Assembly (NCBI GenBank): GCA_009787775.1
Contig: WQSQ01000002.1
Location: forward strand, 1-64,000
Origin: Treponema sp.
Lineage (GTDB): Bacteria; Spirochaetota; Spirochaetia; Treponematales; Breznakiellaceae
Length of the DNA stretch: 64,000 nt
Reading direction: 5' to 3'
Both the position numbers and the translations under genes were made by a program. The notes beneath the pieces are model-generated. The model saw only the letters and a list, made by a program, of their open reading frames with translations. It did not search any database and was not told the DNA's origin. Below, piece by piece: positions 5,343-62,582 of the stretch (the first letter of the stretch is position 1; every line of letters starts with the position of its first letter).

Positions 5343-5385
5343 GGCCATTTATAAGGTAGAATTATACAACGAGTTGTGCCAATTT

Positions 5386-6495
5386 ATGATAAATATATTT
5401 TATGCGACATTTATTCCCGGCTTGCAGAGCCTTATTGCTGACGCAGTTAAAGAGCGTCTTTCTGATGTAAGGATACACAAGCTTCTTGACGGCGCTGTCC
5501 TTTTTGAGACGCTAATCAGCTACGATAAACTTAATCTCTGCTGTTTTAATAATATTTTCGAGGTAATAAACATTCTGGATAGTTCACAGGAGATTTCCGC
5601 GGAATCTAATGATAGTACAGAGATAATTTTAGAGAAACATATAGAATATTTTTTAAGGTATACGGAAGGAAAACCCCTGTGCAGTTCCGCGGTTAATACA
5701 GAACCAATTGTAAATAACAATAAAAAGTTTAATACATTTCGGATTGTTGTTTCCAATGAAAACGTTCCCGCGTCTATAGACGAAGAACTCCGTACGGAGG
5801 CGGAGAAAGCAATTTCCGGCCTTTCCGGCCTTAAAGTCAACCGCGCGCTGCCTGATACAGAGTTTTGGTTTTTGTACAGAAACGAAGTCAAATCACAGGG
5901 GCAGAGTTTCTCTGTTTTCATGAAACGGCTTACCCTGCACCCCTCATGGGAAAAAACCCTGCACAAGGGAGAGCTGCCTCCTCCTCTCGCGTGGGCATTG
6001 TGCCGCCTTGCTTCTCTTTCTTATAATGATGCTGTCCTTGATCCTTTCTGCGGATACGGTTCAATTCCCGAAGCGGCAATGAAATATTTTCACATAACAG
6101 AATTCCATGCAAATGATAATGACAGGCAGGTTGTTTCATATACCGCGGAACGGTTTAAAAAACGGAAAATCAGCAGTTTTTTCCTGCATAACGGCGATTA
6201 CAGCAAGCTGCCATTATTTATCGAAGAGAAAAGCATTGACGCGATTATCACAGACCCGCCGTGGGGGCAGTACAAAGATATTGCTGACAGCGGTTTTTTA
6301 AAAAAAATGTTTAATGTGTTTTACAGGCTCCTTAAGGGAAGCGGGAGAGCGGTTGTACTGTATACAGATGATGACAAATTAATAAAAGCGGCTGAATCAA
6401 GCTTCATTTTGCAGGAAAGTATTCCGATTTTACTTTCAGGCAGAAAAGCTGTGATTTATGTGTTCGCGAAGAAACTCAAAGCAGTTTCAGGCTGA
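5386..6495 (+). CDS. Putative SAM-dependent methyltransferase, UPF0020/THUMP-like RNA methylase type
   Basis: AVLDPFCGYGSIPEAA and IITDPPWGQY motifs; likely ATG at 5386 within the ORF called from 5374. Confidence 0.75.
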   Translation: MINIFYATFIPGLQSLIADAVKERLSDVRIHKLLDGAVLFETLISYDKLNLCCFNNIFEVINILDSSQEISAESNDSTEIILEKHIEYFLRYTEGKPLCSSAVNTEPIVNNNKKFNTFRIVVSNENVPASIDEELRTEAEKAISGLSGLKVNRALPDTEFWFLYRNEVKSQGQSFSVFMKRLTLHPSWEKTLHKGELPPPLAWALCRLASLSYNDAVLDPFCGYGSIPEAAMKYFHITEFHANDNDRQVVSYTAERFKKRKISSFFLHNGDYSKLPLFIEEKSIDAIITDPPWGQYKDIADSGFLKKMFNVFYRLLKGSGRAVVLYTDDDKLIKAAESSFILQESIPILLSGRKAVIYVFAKKLKAVSG

Positions 6496-6547: not shown

Positions 6548-6662
6548 CTTGTACAATGTTTTATATTAAGCTTGTACAATGTTTTGTACCAGGCTTGTAC
6601 AACAGGCTGTAATAGCCTTGTACAACATGTTGTAGTAGCCTTGTACAAAGATTTGTATTATT
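6548..6662. repeat. Tandem array, 5 copies, exact 23-bp period, 9-nt invariant core CTTGTACAA
   Basis: CTTGTACAA begins at 6548, 6571, 6594, 6617 and 6640; the remaining 14 nt are semi-variable. Confidence 0.95.
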
Positions 6663-6745: not shown

Positions 6746-7402
6746 TTGAAGCTAAGATGGTTATTGTTTATCGCCTTTATTATATTTACTGTCGGGAGTG
6801 TTTATTCGCAGCAGGAGCTTATTATCGGTTCGTTTTTACAGGGTAATTTGGCTTCCGATAAGGAGATTTGGTACAGCGTAACGGCGGCTCAAAACGGTCT
6901 TTTGGTTGTGCAGACTGACGGCGATACTGATACTTTCCTGAAAGCCTATGATGCCGGTATGAATTTGATCGCTGAAAATGACGACGGGCCCAATGAACTG
7001 AATGCCAGCATTATATTATCAGTAAAACGCGGTAATACTTATTTTTTTTGTTTAACCGGTTACGACGGCATTATAAGCGGACTGTACAGTATATCCGCTT
7101 CTTATCTGCCTGTAACACAATTAAACGCAGGGAGTTCCTGCAGCGGAAATATTACAGACTGGTATTATAATTTTTTTATTTTTACAGCTTCGCGGAGCGG
7201 TACTCTTACAATTGAGACATCAGGCAGTACGGATACTTATCTGTATTTATACAATGAAGATTTGCAATTTTTGGATTATAATGACGATGGGGCCGGATTT
7301 CCAAATGATAGAATCGTAATAGAGGTTATATCAGGAAGAACATATTACATTGAACTTGGTGCATATGAATTCGGTCCGTATACTGTTTCTGCGTATTTAT
7401 AA
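6746..7402 (+). CDS. Secreted protein with two PPC-like beta-sandwich repeats
   Basis: Signal peptide; repeated GSFLQGNL..EIWYSVTAAQNGLLVVQTDGDTDTFLKAYD..AENDDGPN; TTG start. Confidence 0.7.
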   Translation: MKLRWLLFIAFIIFTVGSVYSQQELIIGSFLQGNLASDKEIWYSVTAAQNGLLVVQTDGDTDTFLKAYDAGMNLIAENDDGPNELNASIILSVKRGNTYFFCLTGYDGIISGLYSISASYLPVTQLNAGSSCSGNITDWYYNFFIFTASRSGTLTIETSGSTDTYLYLYNEDLQFLDYNDDGAGFPNDRIVIEVISGRTYYIELGAYEFGPYTVSAYL

Positions 7403-16702: not shown

Positions 16703-17053
16703 TTATTCTTCGTCATCCCAGTCTTCATCCTCGTCTTCGTAATCATCATCATCTTCGTCTTCGTAATCATCATCATCTTCGTCTTCGTAATCATCATCAT
16801 CTTCGTCTTCATCCTCTTCATCGTCGTCATCTAAATCGTCTTCATCATCGTAGTCGTCTTCAGTGTCGTCATTAAAATCATCATCATCAATGTCATCGTC
16901 ACTGTAACTGTTGAAGATGAAATCCGGTAATTCACTGTTATCAGACTCGTAAGCAGCACTTTCGTATATTTGCATTAGTGCCAGCTCATCCTGTTCCGTA
17001 GCTTGACTAGGAACCTTCGCCGTATTGCTGTTATGCGGTAGATTCAGAATCAT
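16703..17053 (-). CDS. Highly acidic Asp/Glu-rich repeat protein of unknown function
   Basis: 116 aa; C-terminal half almost entirely D/E/Y with an 8-aa repeat YEDEDDDD. Confidence 0.6.
   Translation of the reverse strand: MILNLPHNSNTAKVPSQATEQDELALMQIYESAAYESDNSELPDFIFNSYSDDDIDDDDFNDDTEDDYDDEDDLDDDDEEDEDEDDDDYEDEDDDDYEDEDDDDYEDEDEDWDDEE
16741..16812. repeat. 24-bp in-frame tandem repeat, three near-identical copies
   Basis: AATCATCATCATCTTCGTCTTCGT at 16741, 16765 and 16789 (last copy ends ...TTCAT). Confidence 0.92.
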
Positions 17054-36987: not shown

Positions 36988-37102
36988 ATCATTCAGCCTA
37001 TAGTAAGCTATCACTATAGTCTGTAGTTGCAAATCACTATAGGCTATAGTGATAGTTCACTATAGCCTATAGTGAACTGTCACTAAGCACTATATTAACA
37101 TA
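36988..37102. repeat. Tandem array, about 5 copies, exact 23-bp period, core TCACTATAGnCTATAGTGA
   Basis: Units at 36988 (degenerate), 37011, 37034, 37057 and 37080 (degenerate). Confidence 0.9.
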
Positions 37103-37146: not shown

Positions 37147-37286
37147 GGGCTGTCCAGGAAGCCGGTTACTTACTGTACAGCCGGACTAAAGTCCGATGTT
37201 TTTTCTCCTGTTTCTCCCAAATAGTACGAAAAAACGACAATTAGGAAGGTGTCCGAAAAAGTATTTCATACTTTTCGGACACAGCC
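37147..37286 (+). repeat. Three-hairpin dispersed element, copy A
   Basis: GGGCTGT...TACAGCC hairpin; GTTTTTTC...GTACGAAAAAAC stem; GTGTCCGAAAAAGTATTTCATACTTTTCGGACAC hairpin; matches reverse complement of 62196-62324. Confidence 0.85.
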
Positions 37287-60360: not shown

Positions 60361-62160
60361 ATGAAAATTAAAAAAGAGACAAGGGTTAGTATTTTTGTAC
60401 TAATCATGTTAACCACGTTTATATCCTTTACCTTTACCTCCTGCGGTCCTGCCTGCGAACATGTCAATGTTGACATAGAAAGGGCAACCTGTACCCAAGA
60501 TAAGAAATGTCTGGATTGCGGTAAAACAGTACAAGGTAAACTAGGACACACTGCTGATGAGGAAACACGCACTATAACGACATATCCAACTTATGACGCC
60601 GCAGGCGCATATCAGGCAAATTGTGTAAGATGCGGCGAATCTATAACAGGCAGTATTGCCCGCCTTGATTATACGCCTAACCTTAAGTATGAATCGGTAG
60701 ACGGCAGGGTAACGGTTTCAATAGGAGAAGCAGGCGTAAATTATGCCAGTATCCTTAATGATATTAGAATTCCTTCAGCAGTTCCCAGTACAGATCCTCT
60801 GAGCGGAAAAACTAGTACGGATCCTCTAAGGGGACGAAGTGTAGCCGCCATAGCTGTAGACGGATTCAGAGGAACTGCTATTACGAACGTGAAAATCCCC
60901 GAAGGCGTTACTTCTATCGGAGCGGGTGCGTTCTATGGCTGTACCAGCCTTGCTGACATAAAAATCCCCTCCAGCGTTACTACTGTCGGCGCAGGCGCGT
61001 TTACAGGCTGTACCAGCCTTAAGAACATAGAAATTGATAATAGTAATATTAATTACGGCGAAGCTTTTGATAAAAATATTATTGAAAGTGTAGTGATTAA
61101 TGTCGCTGCAATCCACGAAAATGCGTTTAAAGATTTCATCAGCCTTAAGGATGTAACAATCGGCAGCAGAGTTACATCCATAGGCGCGAATGCATTCTCC
61201 GGCTGCACCAGCCTTGAAAGCATAACAATCAAGTCGGCGACTTTACCTGATCTCAGCGAAGCTTTTGATGTAGCAAATATCAAAACCGTGAAAATCGAAA
61301 ATGTTACCTCTATAGGCCCTGGTACATTCAAAGATTTTACCAGTCTTGAAAGCGTAACAATCGGCAGCAGCGTTAATACAATAGGACGGGAGGCGTTCTC
61401 CGGCTGCACCAGCCTTGCAGGTATAACAATCCCAAACAATGTCACTTCCATAGGAGAGAAAGCGTTCTATGGCTGTACCAGCCTTGCAAATATAACAATC
61501 CCCAACAGTGTTACTACCATAGACAATAATGCATTTGAAGGCTGCACTAATCTTACAAGCGTAACATTCAGCAGCAACAGTAGGGTTTCTTCTATCGGTA
61601 ATTCTGCTTTTACTGGCTGCACCAGCCTTGCAAGTATAACAATCCCCAGCAGCGTTACTACCATCGGCAATAGTGCGTTTGAAGGCTGCACTAATCTTGC
61701 AAGTGTAACAATCCCCAGCAGCGTTACTGCCATTGGTAATTATGCGTTCTCTAGTTGCAAACTTACATCACCTATAACAATCCCCAGCAGCGTTAAAACT
61801 ATCGGTAATTATGCGTTTTCCAACAGCGGCCTTACAAGCGTAACAATATCCAGCGGAAGCACTGCTTCCATAGGTAATAATGCGTTCCAAAGCTGCACCA
61901 GCCTTGCAAGCATAACGATCCCCGAAGGTGTTACCAGTATCAACCAATATGCTTTTAGCGGCTGTATCAGTCTTTTAAGCATTACTATTCCAAGTAGTGT
62001 TACATCCGTTGGCAATTTAGCCTTTAGCGGCTGGCTTGCCAATCAAGACATATTCATAAAACATAATAGTCTTAATCCAACCGGATGGAGTAATAATTGG
62101 TATATGAATTGTGCGGCGTCAATCTATGGAACCCAAGATCAACTCTGGCCGCAACAATAA
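60361..62160 (+). CDS. BspA-like leucine-rich-repeat (LRR_5) surface lipoprotein
   Basis: Lipobox SFTFTSC; many 23-aa repeats SxVTxIGxxAFxGCTSLxxITIPS; N-terminal CxxC pairs. Confidence 0.93.
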   Translation: MKIKKETRVSIFVLIMLTTFISFTFTSCGPACEHVNVDIERATCTQDKKCLDCGKTVQGKLGHTADEETRTITTYPTYDAAGAYQANCVRCGESITGSIARLDYTPNLKYESVDGRVTVSIGEAGVNYASILNDIRIPSAVPSTDPLSGKTSTDPLRGRSVAAIAVDGFRGTAITNVKIPEGVTSIGAGAFYGCTSLADIKIPSSVTTVGAGAFTGCTSLKNIEIDNSNINYGEAFDKNIIESVVINVAAIHENAFKDFISLKDVTIGSRVTSIGANAFSGCTSLESITIKSATLPDLSEAFDVANIKTVKIENVTSIGPGTFKDFTSLESVTIGSSVNTIGREAFSGCTSLAGITIPNNVTSIGEKAFYGCTSLANITIPNSVTTIDNNAFEGCTNLTSVTFSSNSRVSSIGNSAFTGCTSLASITIPSSVTTIGNSAFEGCTNLASVTIPSSVTAIGNYAFSSCKLTSPITIPSSVKTIGNYAFSNSGLTSVTISSGSTASIGNNAFQSCTSLASITIPEGVTSINQYAFSGCISLLSITIPSSVTSVGNLAFSGWLANQDIFIKHNSLNPTGWSNNWYMNCAASIYGTQDQLWPQQ

Positions 62161-62195: not shown

Positions 62196-62324
62196 GGCGG
62201 TGTCCGAAAAGTATGAAATACTTGTTCGGACATCTTCTTTATTGTGGTTTTTTCGTAGTATTTCGCTGAAATAGGGGAAAAAACGAGAGCTGTTCAAGAA
62301 GTAACCAACTTCTTGTACAGCCCC
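62196..62324 (-). repeat. Three-hairpin dispersed element, copy B
   Basis: Reverse complement GGCTGTACAAGAAGTTGGTTACTTCTTGAACAGC..CGTTTTTTCCCCTATTTCAGCGAAATACTACGAAAAAACC..GTCCGAACAAGTATTTCATACTTTTCGGACACC matches copy A. Confidence 0.85.
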
Positions 62325-62343: not shown

Positions 62344-62481
62344 GTCAAGGCCTGGTGTGAGATCGCGTCAAGCATTGGTGTGAGATCGCGTCAAGGCCTG
62401 GTGGATGACCGCGTCAAGCATTGGTGTAAGATCGCGTCAAGCATTGGTGTGAGATCGCGTCAAGGCTTGACGGGAGGTCTG
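62344..62481. repeat. Tandem array, 6 copies (plus a degenerate one at 62321), exact 23-bp period
   Basis: GTCAAG starts at 62344, 62367, 62390, 62413, 62436 and 62459; consensus GTCAAGCATTGGTGTGAGATCGC. Confidence 0.95.
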
Positions 62482-62582
62482 TCCTGAATTAGGGACAGAC
62501 GTAAAGTTAATGATTTGGTGTTTCTAGTTTTTACAAGGCTTCTGTCCTGCAATGTTGGTTTTTTACGTAAAATAATGATATA

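Follow-up and report, generated by a model that had tools for sequence, protein, structure and literature searches.

What does a row of five short repeats, set exactly 23 bp apart, do between a methyltransferase gene and a gene for a secreted protein? The window (the whole stretch of 64,000 nucleotides of Treponema sp. DNA analysed here) carries such a row, together with two further arrays at the same pitch (Table 1). A preliminary description of the locus had reported five CTTGTACAA units at exact 23-bp pitch, and the five starts (6548, 6571, 6594, 6617 and 6640, with the fifth unit ending at 6662) confirm this. It had also proposed that the spacing is constrained and that the array could serve as an operator or as a protein-binding scaffold. 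A search of Rfam gave no match at the array. The methyltransferase gene lies downstream of a class II ribonucleotide reductase gene in several relatives too, and a neighbourhood comparison found no PPC gene beside it in relatives.

Table 1. Features of the window, with their positions, and the module layouts of the seven repeat families.
Feature	Position	Strand	Layout or description
Left neighbour, UPF0020/RlmKL-like methyltransferase	5374..6495	+	
Family A array	6548..6662	+	5 units, 23-bp pitch; common register GTACAA-NNNN-(T/C)TGTAn + 7-bp spacer nAGCCTT
First full module in register	6551..6573	+	arm GTACAA 6551-6556, variable centre TGTT 6557-6560, arm TTATAT 6561-6566, spacer TAAGCTT 6567-6573
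Right neighbour, gene for secreted PPC-domain protein	6746..7402	+	
Low-complexity repeat	16721..16900		TCATCATCT/TCGTCTTC-type
Family B array	36995..37094	-	TAGTGA-NNNN-TCACTA + spacer TAGNCTA; within ~290-bp element
Dispersed hairpin-rich repeat, ~89 bp	37150..37238	+	region to 37286; adjoins the family B array
BspA-type leucine-rich-repeat gene	60361..62160		69-bp repeats (23 aa)
Second copy of the ~89-bp repeat	62196..62284	-	beside the family C array
Family C array	62344..62486	+	GGTGTG-NNNN-CGCGTC + spacer AAGNCTT; 23-bp pitch
Family A module (G000)			GTACAA-n4-TTGTAC + TAGCCTT
Family B module (G000)			TAGTGA-n4-TCACTA + TAGnCTA
Family C module (G000)			GGTGTG-n4-CGCGTC + AAGnCTT
Family D module (G000)			TTACAG-n4-GAATAA + TAGCCTA
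Family E module (G024)			TGTTGn-n4-TCGACA + TAGCCTA
Family F module (G024)			GTTnnn-n4-nnnAAC + AGGCTTA
Family G module (G024)			GATCGG-n4-CCGATC + CnGnnCT

The genome from which the window comes (G000, Treponema sp.; 2.04 Mb in 109 contigs, 71% complete) was sampled over 447 kb, consisting of the window and 20 stretches, with ten stretches (200 kb) picked blind to arrays. When each lag from 8 to 75 was scanned for self-matches, we found 22 arrays at lag 23, 20 at lag 46 and 20 at lag 69, compared to 0-3 at every other lag. Tandem Repeats Finder agrees with the lag-23 peak, and the ten blind stretches contain 7 arrays at this lag. The excess of 23-bp tandem repeats, which the preliminary description had named as a check, is therefore present. 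Across the genome, 10 places together hold 23 copies of CTTGTACAA-N14-CTTGTACAA (reversed control: 0), and a longer family A unit pattern with at most three mismatches has 111 matches (control: 1). These matches fall in ~26 places, ~20 of which hold two or more units, and we accordingly count ~20 A arrays. The 9-mer core, described as constant in the five units of the window array, is conserved across these ~20 arrays. At least four sequence families are found at the 23-bp pitch in G000, namely A (TTGTACAA, the window array), B (CACTATAGnCTATAGTGA), C (GCGTCAAG...) and D (stretch L037); one further family was later met on contig C48 through the spacer and pitch pattern described below.

Successive units are exactly 23 bp apart in 40 of 42 steps in family A and in all 104 steps in family B. 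Indels are thus not tolerated, which is unlike a neutral minisatellite. The 54 A units sampled are all mutually distinct, and their distance at nine variable positions is 4.65 within arrays compared to 4.98 between arrays. Entropy is 0-0.5 bits at most positions of TACA / TGTA / AG.CTT and 1.1-1.6 bits in the centre; the arm and spacer core hardly varies, and the centre, four bases long, is near saturation. Only part of the 14 nucleotides first described as variable is free (positions 10-13 of the unit and the two that follow TTGTA), whereas (T/C)TGTA and AGCC(TTG) are strongly constrained. With a fixed core, a near-invariant pitch and no two units alike, the proposal of constrained spacing instead of recent duplication holds.

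Aligning the units of seven families in a common register (A-D from G000 and E, F and G from the congener G024) reveals a shared layout, in which a 6-bp arm, four variable bp and a complementary 6-bp arm (16 bp in all) are followed by a 7-bp spacer with an AGNCT core. One dyad axis is dominant in six of the seven families, with 0.55-0.72 complementary pairs compared to a mean of 0.23-0.28 for the other 22 axes (sd 0.07-0.09); in family D, with five units, the axis is ambiguous. All seven families fit the 16+7 layout with an AGNCT-type spacer, family G being the weakest, and the arms of family C pair largely by G.T on one strand. Furthermore, hybrid arrays combine families in exact register: a C array takes an A-type arm at its end (L034), B continues as A (L175), A continues as D (L025), and B elements open with an A-type arm (L043, L178). 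A pattern made of spacer and pitch only (four WAGnCTW set 23 bp apart, no arm letters) has 8 matches in G000, 47 in G024 and 0 in 38 other congeners, with 0 and 1 for the reversed control. The shared layout, the matches to this pattern and the in-register hybrids together show that the array families are not independent accidents. We conclude that the arrays are a real, constrained and dispersed tandem-dyad system, in which a fixed 23-bp frame carries several sequences.

Of 39 cases, 38 are intergenic; the arrays lie between tandem, divergent and convergent gene pairs alike, with no orientation preference and with unrelated genes beside them from locus to locus. Family B is found at ~22 loci in the genome as a non-coding element of ~290 bp, whose flanks are conserved; no conserved flank was found for the A arrays. 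Alignments of the B elements revealed no obvious terminal inverted repeats, and no target duplications were recognised. When three A loci are compared with G010, the nearest relative checked, similarity stops at the gene end, the intergenic DNA is unalignable and the next genes differ. This pattern fits insertion-prone DNA and is no proof of insertion. As no empty insertion site was found in G010, where the flanking DNA is not alignable, we infer mobility from dispersal alone. Matches to PF00589 (tyrosine recombinase/integrase) number 5 in G000 and 5 in G024, within a congener range of 2-16, and PF01797 (Y1_Tnp) has no match in G000 (71% complete) or G024 (77% complete) and one in 18 of 40 congeners; no candidate mover was found from these counts. 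On a separate note, the congener G051 has twelve weak Y1_Tnp-like open frames, an expansion absent in other congeners.

A dyad can be a protein-binding site in double-stranded DNA or fold as a hairpin. Arm covariation beyond shuffling is absent in family B (118 distinct units) and in C, E and G, and B has no covariation in the pairing across the spacer either. Family A has weak covariation at one of eight pairs (p about 0.005), and family F of G024 has clear compensatory arm swaps (CCG/CGG, GAG/CTC, CAT/ATG), which derive from few events. Single-strand folds of the arrays are stable (z -3.2 to -8.5), about equally on both strands for A, B and F. Any dyad array would fold, however. Given the lack of arm covariation in B, we regard the modules as probable dyad sites in double-stranded form, the simplest reader being a dimeric protein; family F calls for caution. 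A hairpin or RNA function was set aside as first choice on the same ground.

Several other explanations have to be weighed against such protein sites. The preliminary description offered an operator, which for the PPC gene would mean a repressor or activator bound at five upstream sites. The array does end 84 bp before the PPC reading frame and the dyad GTACAA-N4-TTGTAC resembles a dimer operator, but arrays of the same family are found just as often behind genes or between convergent ones as they are upstream, their neighbours are unrelated, and the methyltransferase/PPC neighbourhood is unconserved in relatives. An operator role for this one gene does not account for the array family and, as the arrays have no orientation preference, we consider it highly unlikely for the PPC gene; the other half of the proposal, a protein-binding scaffold, is still the best reading of a putative role. 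Replication slippage on palindromes, giving rise to neutral minisatellites, would account for the direct tandem organisation and for the nearly identical units of some C and D arrays. It is nevertheless a very unlikely origin, because unrelated sequences have a single pitch, constraint is limited to core and spacer around a saturated centre, no A units are identical and hybrid arrays keep register. Ordinary minisatellites that match the spacer and pitch pattern in viral contigs, in contrast, do have identical units. Transcribed arrays could also fold into rows of hairpins acting in mRNA stability, in termination or as decoy RNA. The fold z-scores and the G.T-compatible pairing of family C favour structured RNA of this kind, yet the indifference to gene orientation, the similar folding of both strands in A, B and F, the missing covariation in 118 B units and the absence of an Rfam match make it improbable.

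One of the closest known systems is the REP/BIME class, whose short extragenic palindromes are likewise found in high copy and in regularly spaced sets, are species-specific and are presumably mobile (PMC3733652, PMC2817692). The arrays resemble it in being extragenic palindromes of 20-40 bp in high copy and regularly spaced groups, with stable folds, species-specific copy number and, in family F, compensatory arms. If they worked in this way, the palindromes would be single-stranded hairpins recognised and mobilised by an HUH (Y1) transposase. We regard this as unlikely: the arrays are strict direct tandems on one strand at one 23-bp pitch instead of alternating units, several unrelated sequences share one frame, and unit-level covariation is missing from C, E, G and the large family B. 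By test the arrays are not REP/BIME, since the consensus units of the seven families have no constant GTAG or CGTC tag and no Y1 transposase was found in either carrier genome (both incomplete), although some REP-bearing species are without RAYTs (PMC3733652). Another possibility is that a tyrosine recombinase crosses over within the AGNCT spacer, the core site being flanked by inverted arms, so that arrays grow or mix by spacer exchange. The arm-7-arm geometry, the 16-bp modules swapped whole, the interfamily junctions in exact register and the hybrid junctions across the spacer in family F would all suit such recombination sites. We find them quite unlikely nonetheless, as tyrosine recombinases are not expanded in either carrier genome and the conserved spacer with varying arms is the reverse of what recombinase specificity would lead one to expect.

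Plasmid iterons and partition centromere repeats consist of 4-7 tandem sites of 17-23 bp with a conserved core and a variable linker, read by protein on double-stranded DNA. The arrays are similar in having at least four direct repeats of ~17-23 bp with a conserved core at constant pitch. They differ in that dozens of them, in several families, are spread across one chromosome (~20 A and ~22 B loci), with unrelated neighbours and no tie to a single rep/par, origin or partition locus. The ~290-bp B element, non-coding and with conserved flanks, recalls a MITE, although no terminal inverted repeats or target duplications were recognised in it; family A is without a conserved flank. CRISPR arrays also have regular palindromic repeats with constant and variable parts. 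CRISPR repeats are 24-48 bp according to a paper on REP elements; here the units abut directly at dozens of loci, and the variable part is 4 bp. We ruled out CRISPR identity because no unique spacers of regular size separate the repeats.

The expectation that the array would recur in relatives held for the architecture in one congener and failed for the sequence. Family A was found in none of the 40 congeners searched, and family B is likewise not found there beyond a single B-like patch of 46 bp in G003. In ~0.98 Mb of sampled DNA, covering 38 congeners and a relative further removed, we found no 23-bp arrays apart from low-complexity DNA. However, 215 kb sampled from the congener G024 contain five 23-bp arrays of new sequences, together with four 21-bp arrays, of which three have dyads. 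The absence of family A from relatives is thus a patchy distribution, and the phenomenon itself is not absent, as the same architecture is found with other sequences in G024. The 21-bp arrays (L098, L099, L102:8436-8831 and L104) may be coding repeats, 21 being a multiple of 3, and some show compensatory arm changes (CTGAGC-G-GCTCAG / CTGAGT-G-ACTCAG).

Beyond the genus, family A has no match in plasmids and phages, and neither A nor B was found in viral contigs. Two matches to family A in GTDB genome contigs, both in Bacteroidota MAGs, are chance-like and without unit structure. The spacer and pitch pattern has seven matches in viral contigs, of which five are minisatellites of identical units and two are degenerate dyad arrays that serve as leads only. 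One of the latter (L211:5746-5945; IMG/VR 3300018063_000015, a putative virus, uncultivated) has TAGnCTA + nACTAA-n4-TTAGTn repeated every 23 bp, no two units being the same; this is the same layout outside the genus. The other (L216:5480-5965; IMG/VR 3300028809_000055) has CTAA...TTAG hairpin modules with varying inner sequence at a pitch of 23-24, and its contig also encodes a weakly ParB-like protein (PHROG 1033, E 5e-4) ~2.3 kb from the array.

We propose that the window array is a copy of a non-coding element that is dispersed between genes and consists of a row of 4-7 dyad modules in a 23-bp frame. Each module would be bound, as double-stranded DNA, by one dimer of a sequence-specific protein, and the fixed 23-bp step would let 4-7 dimers dock side by side. 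Such multi-dimer docking arrays may have been dispersed as non-autonomous mobile DNA; the docking protein, or a mobile element using that protein, would move or maintain them. Arms of different sequence would then correspond to different specificities, through diverged paralogues or diverged sites, within one geometry. We infer both the docking and the mode of dispersal, and hold this explanation to be evenly poised between right and wrong. Against docking we count the arm swaps of family F, as in a hairpin, the weak covariation at one pair in family A, the G.T pairing of family C and the significantly stable single-strand folds.

In the literature searched, no prior description of such arrays was found. 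It is usually the sequence that defines a dispersed repeat in bacteria, whereas the conserved feature of the 23-bp arrays is their geometry: the frame carries at least four unrelated families in G000 and at least three more in G024. One geometry with many sequences mixed in register points to a putative protein that reads the pitch and the short AGNCT spacer. More tentatively, the arrays could represent a class of satellite-like element not described before in bacteria, defined by an arm6-N4-arm6-AGNCT frame at 23-bp pitch, with a 21-bp sister class and with unrelated arms mixed in register. If true, this class would imply a protein family that sets geometry while changing sequence specificity, perhaps as a selfish or chromosome-organising system gained and lost from one species to another. 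Arrays of this kind would be a bacterial counterpart of satellite DNA, in which sequence turns over and form is kept.

A few further features of the genome were noted. The ~89-bp hairpin-rich repeat has ~10 copies in the genome, one of them adjoining an A array (C1:232-310), and carries GGCTGTAC-like half-sites resembling family A; its two copies in the window are 87% complementary. Elsewhere (L032:8703-11288), an A array lies between two tandem paralogues resembling basic-membrane-protein (PnrA/Bmp-type) lipoproteins. The repeats of the leucine-rich-repeat gene in the window are coding and unrelated, their length being a multiple of 23 by coincidence. Finally, the low-complexity repeat of the window probably codes for an acidic tract on the minus strand.
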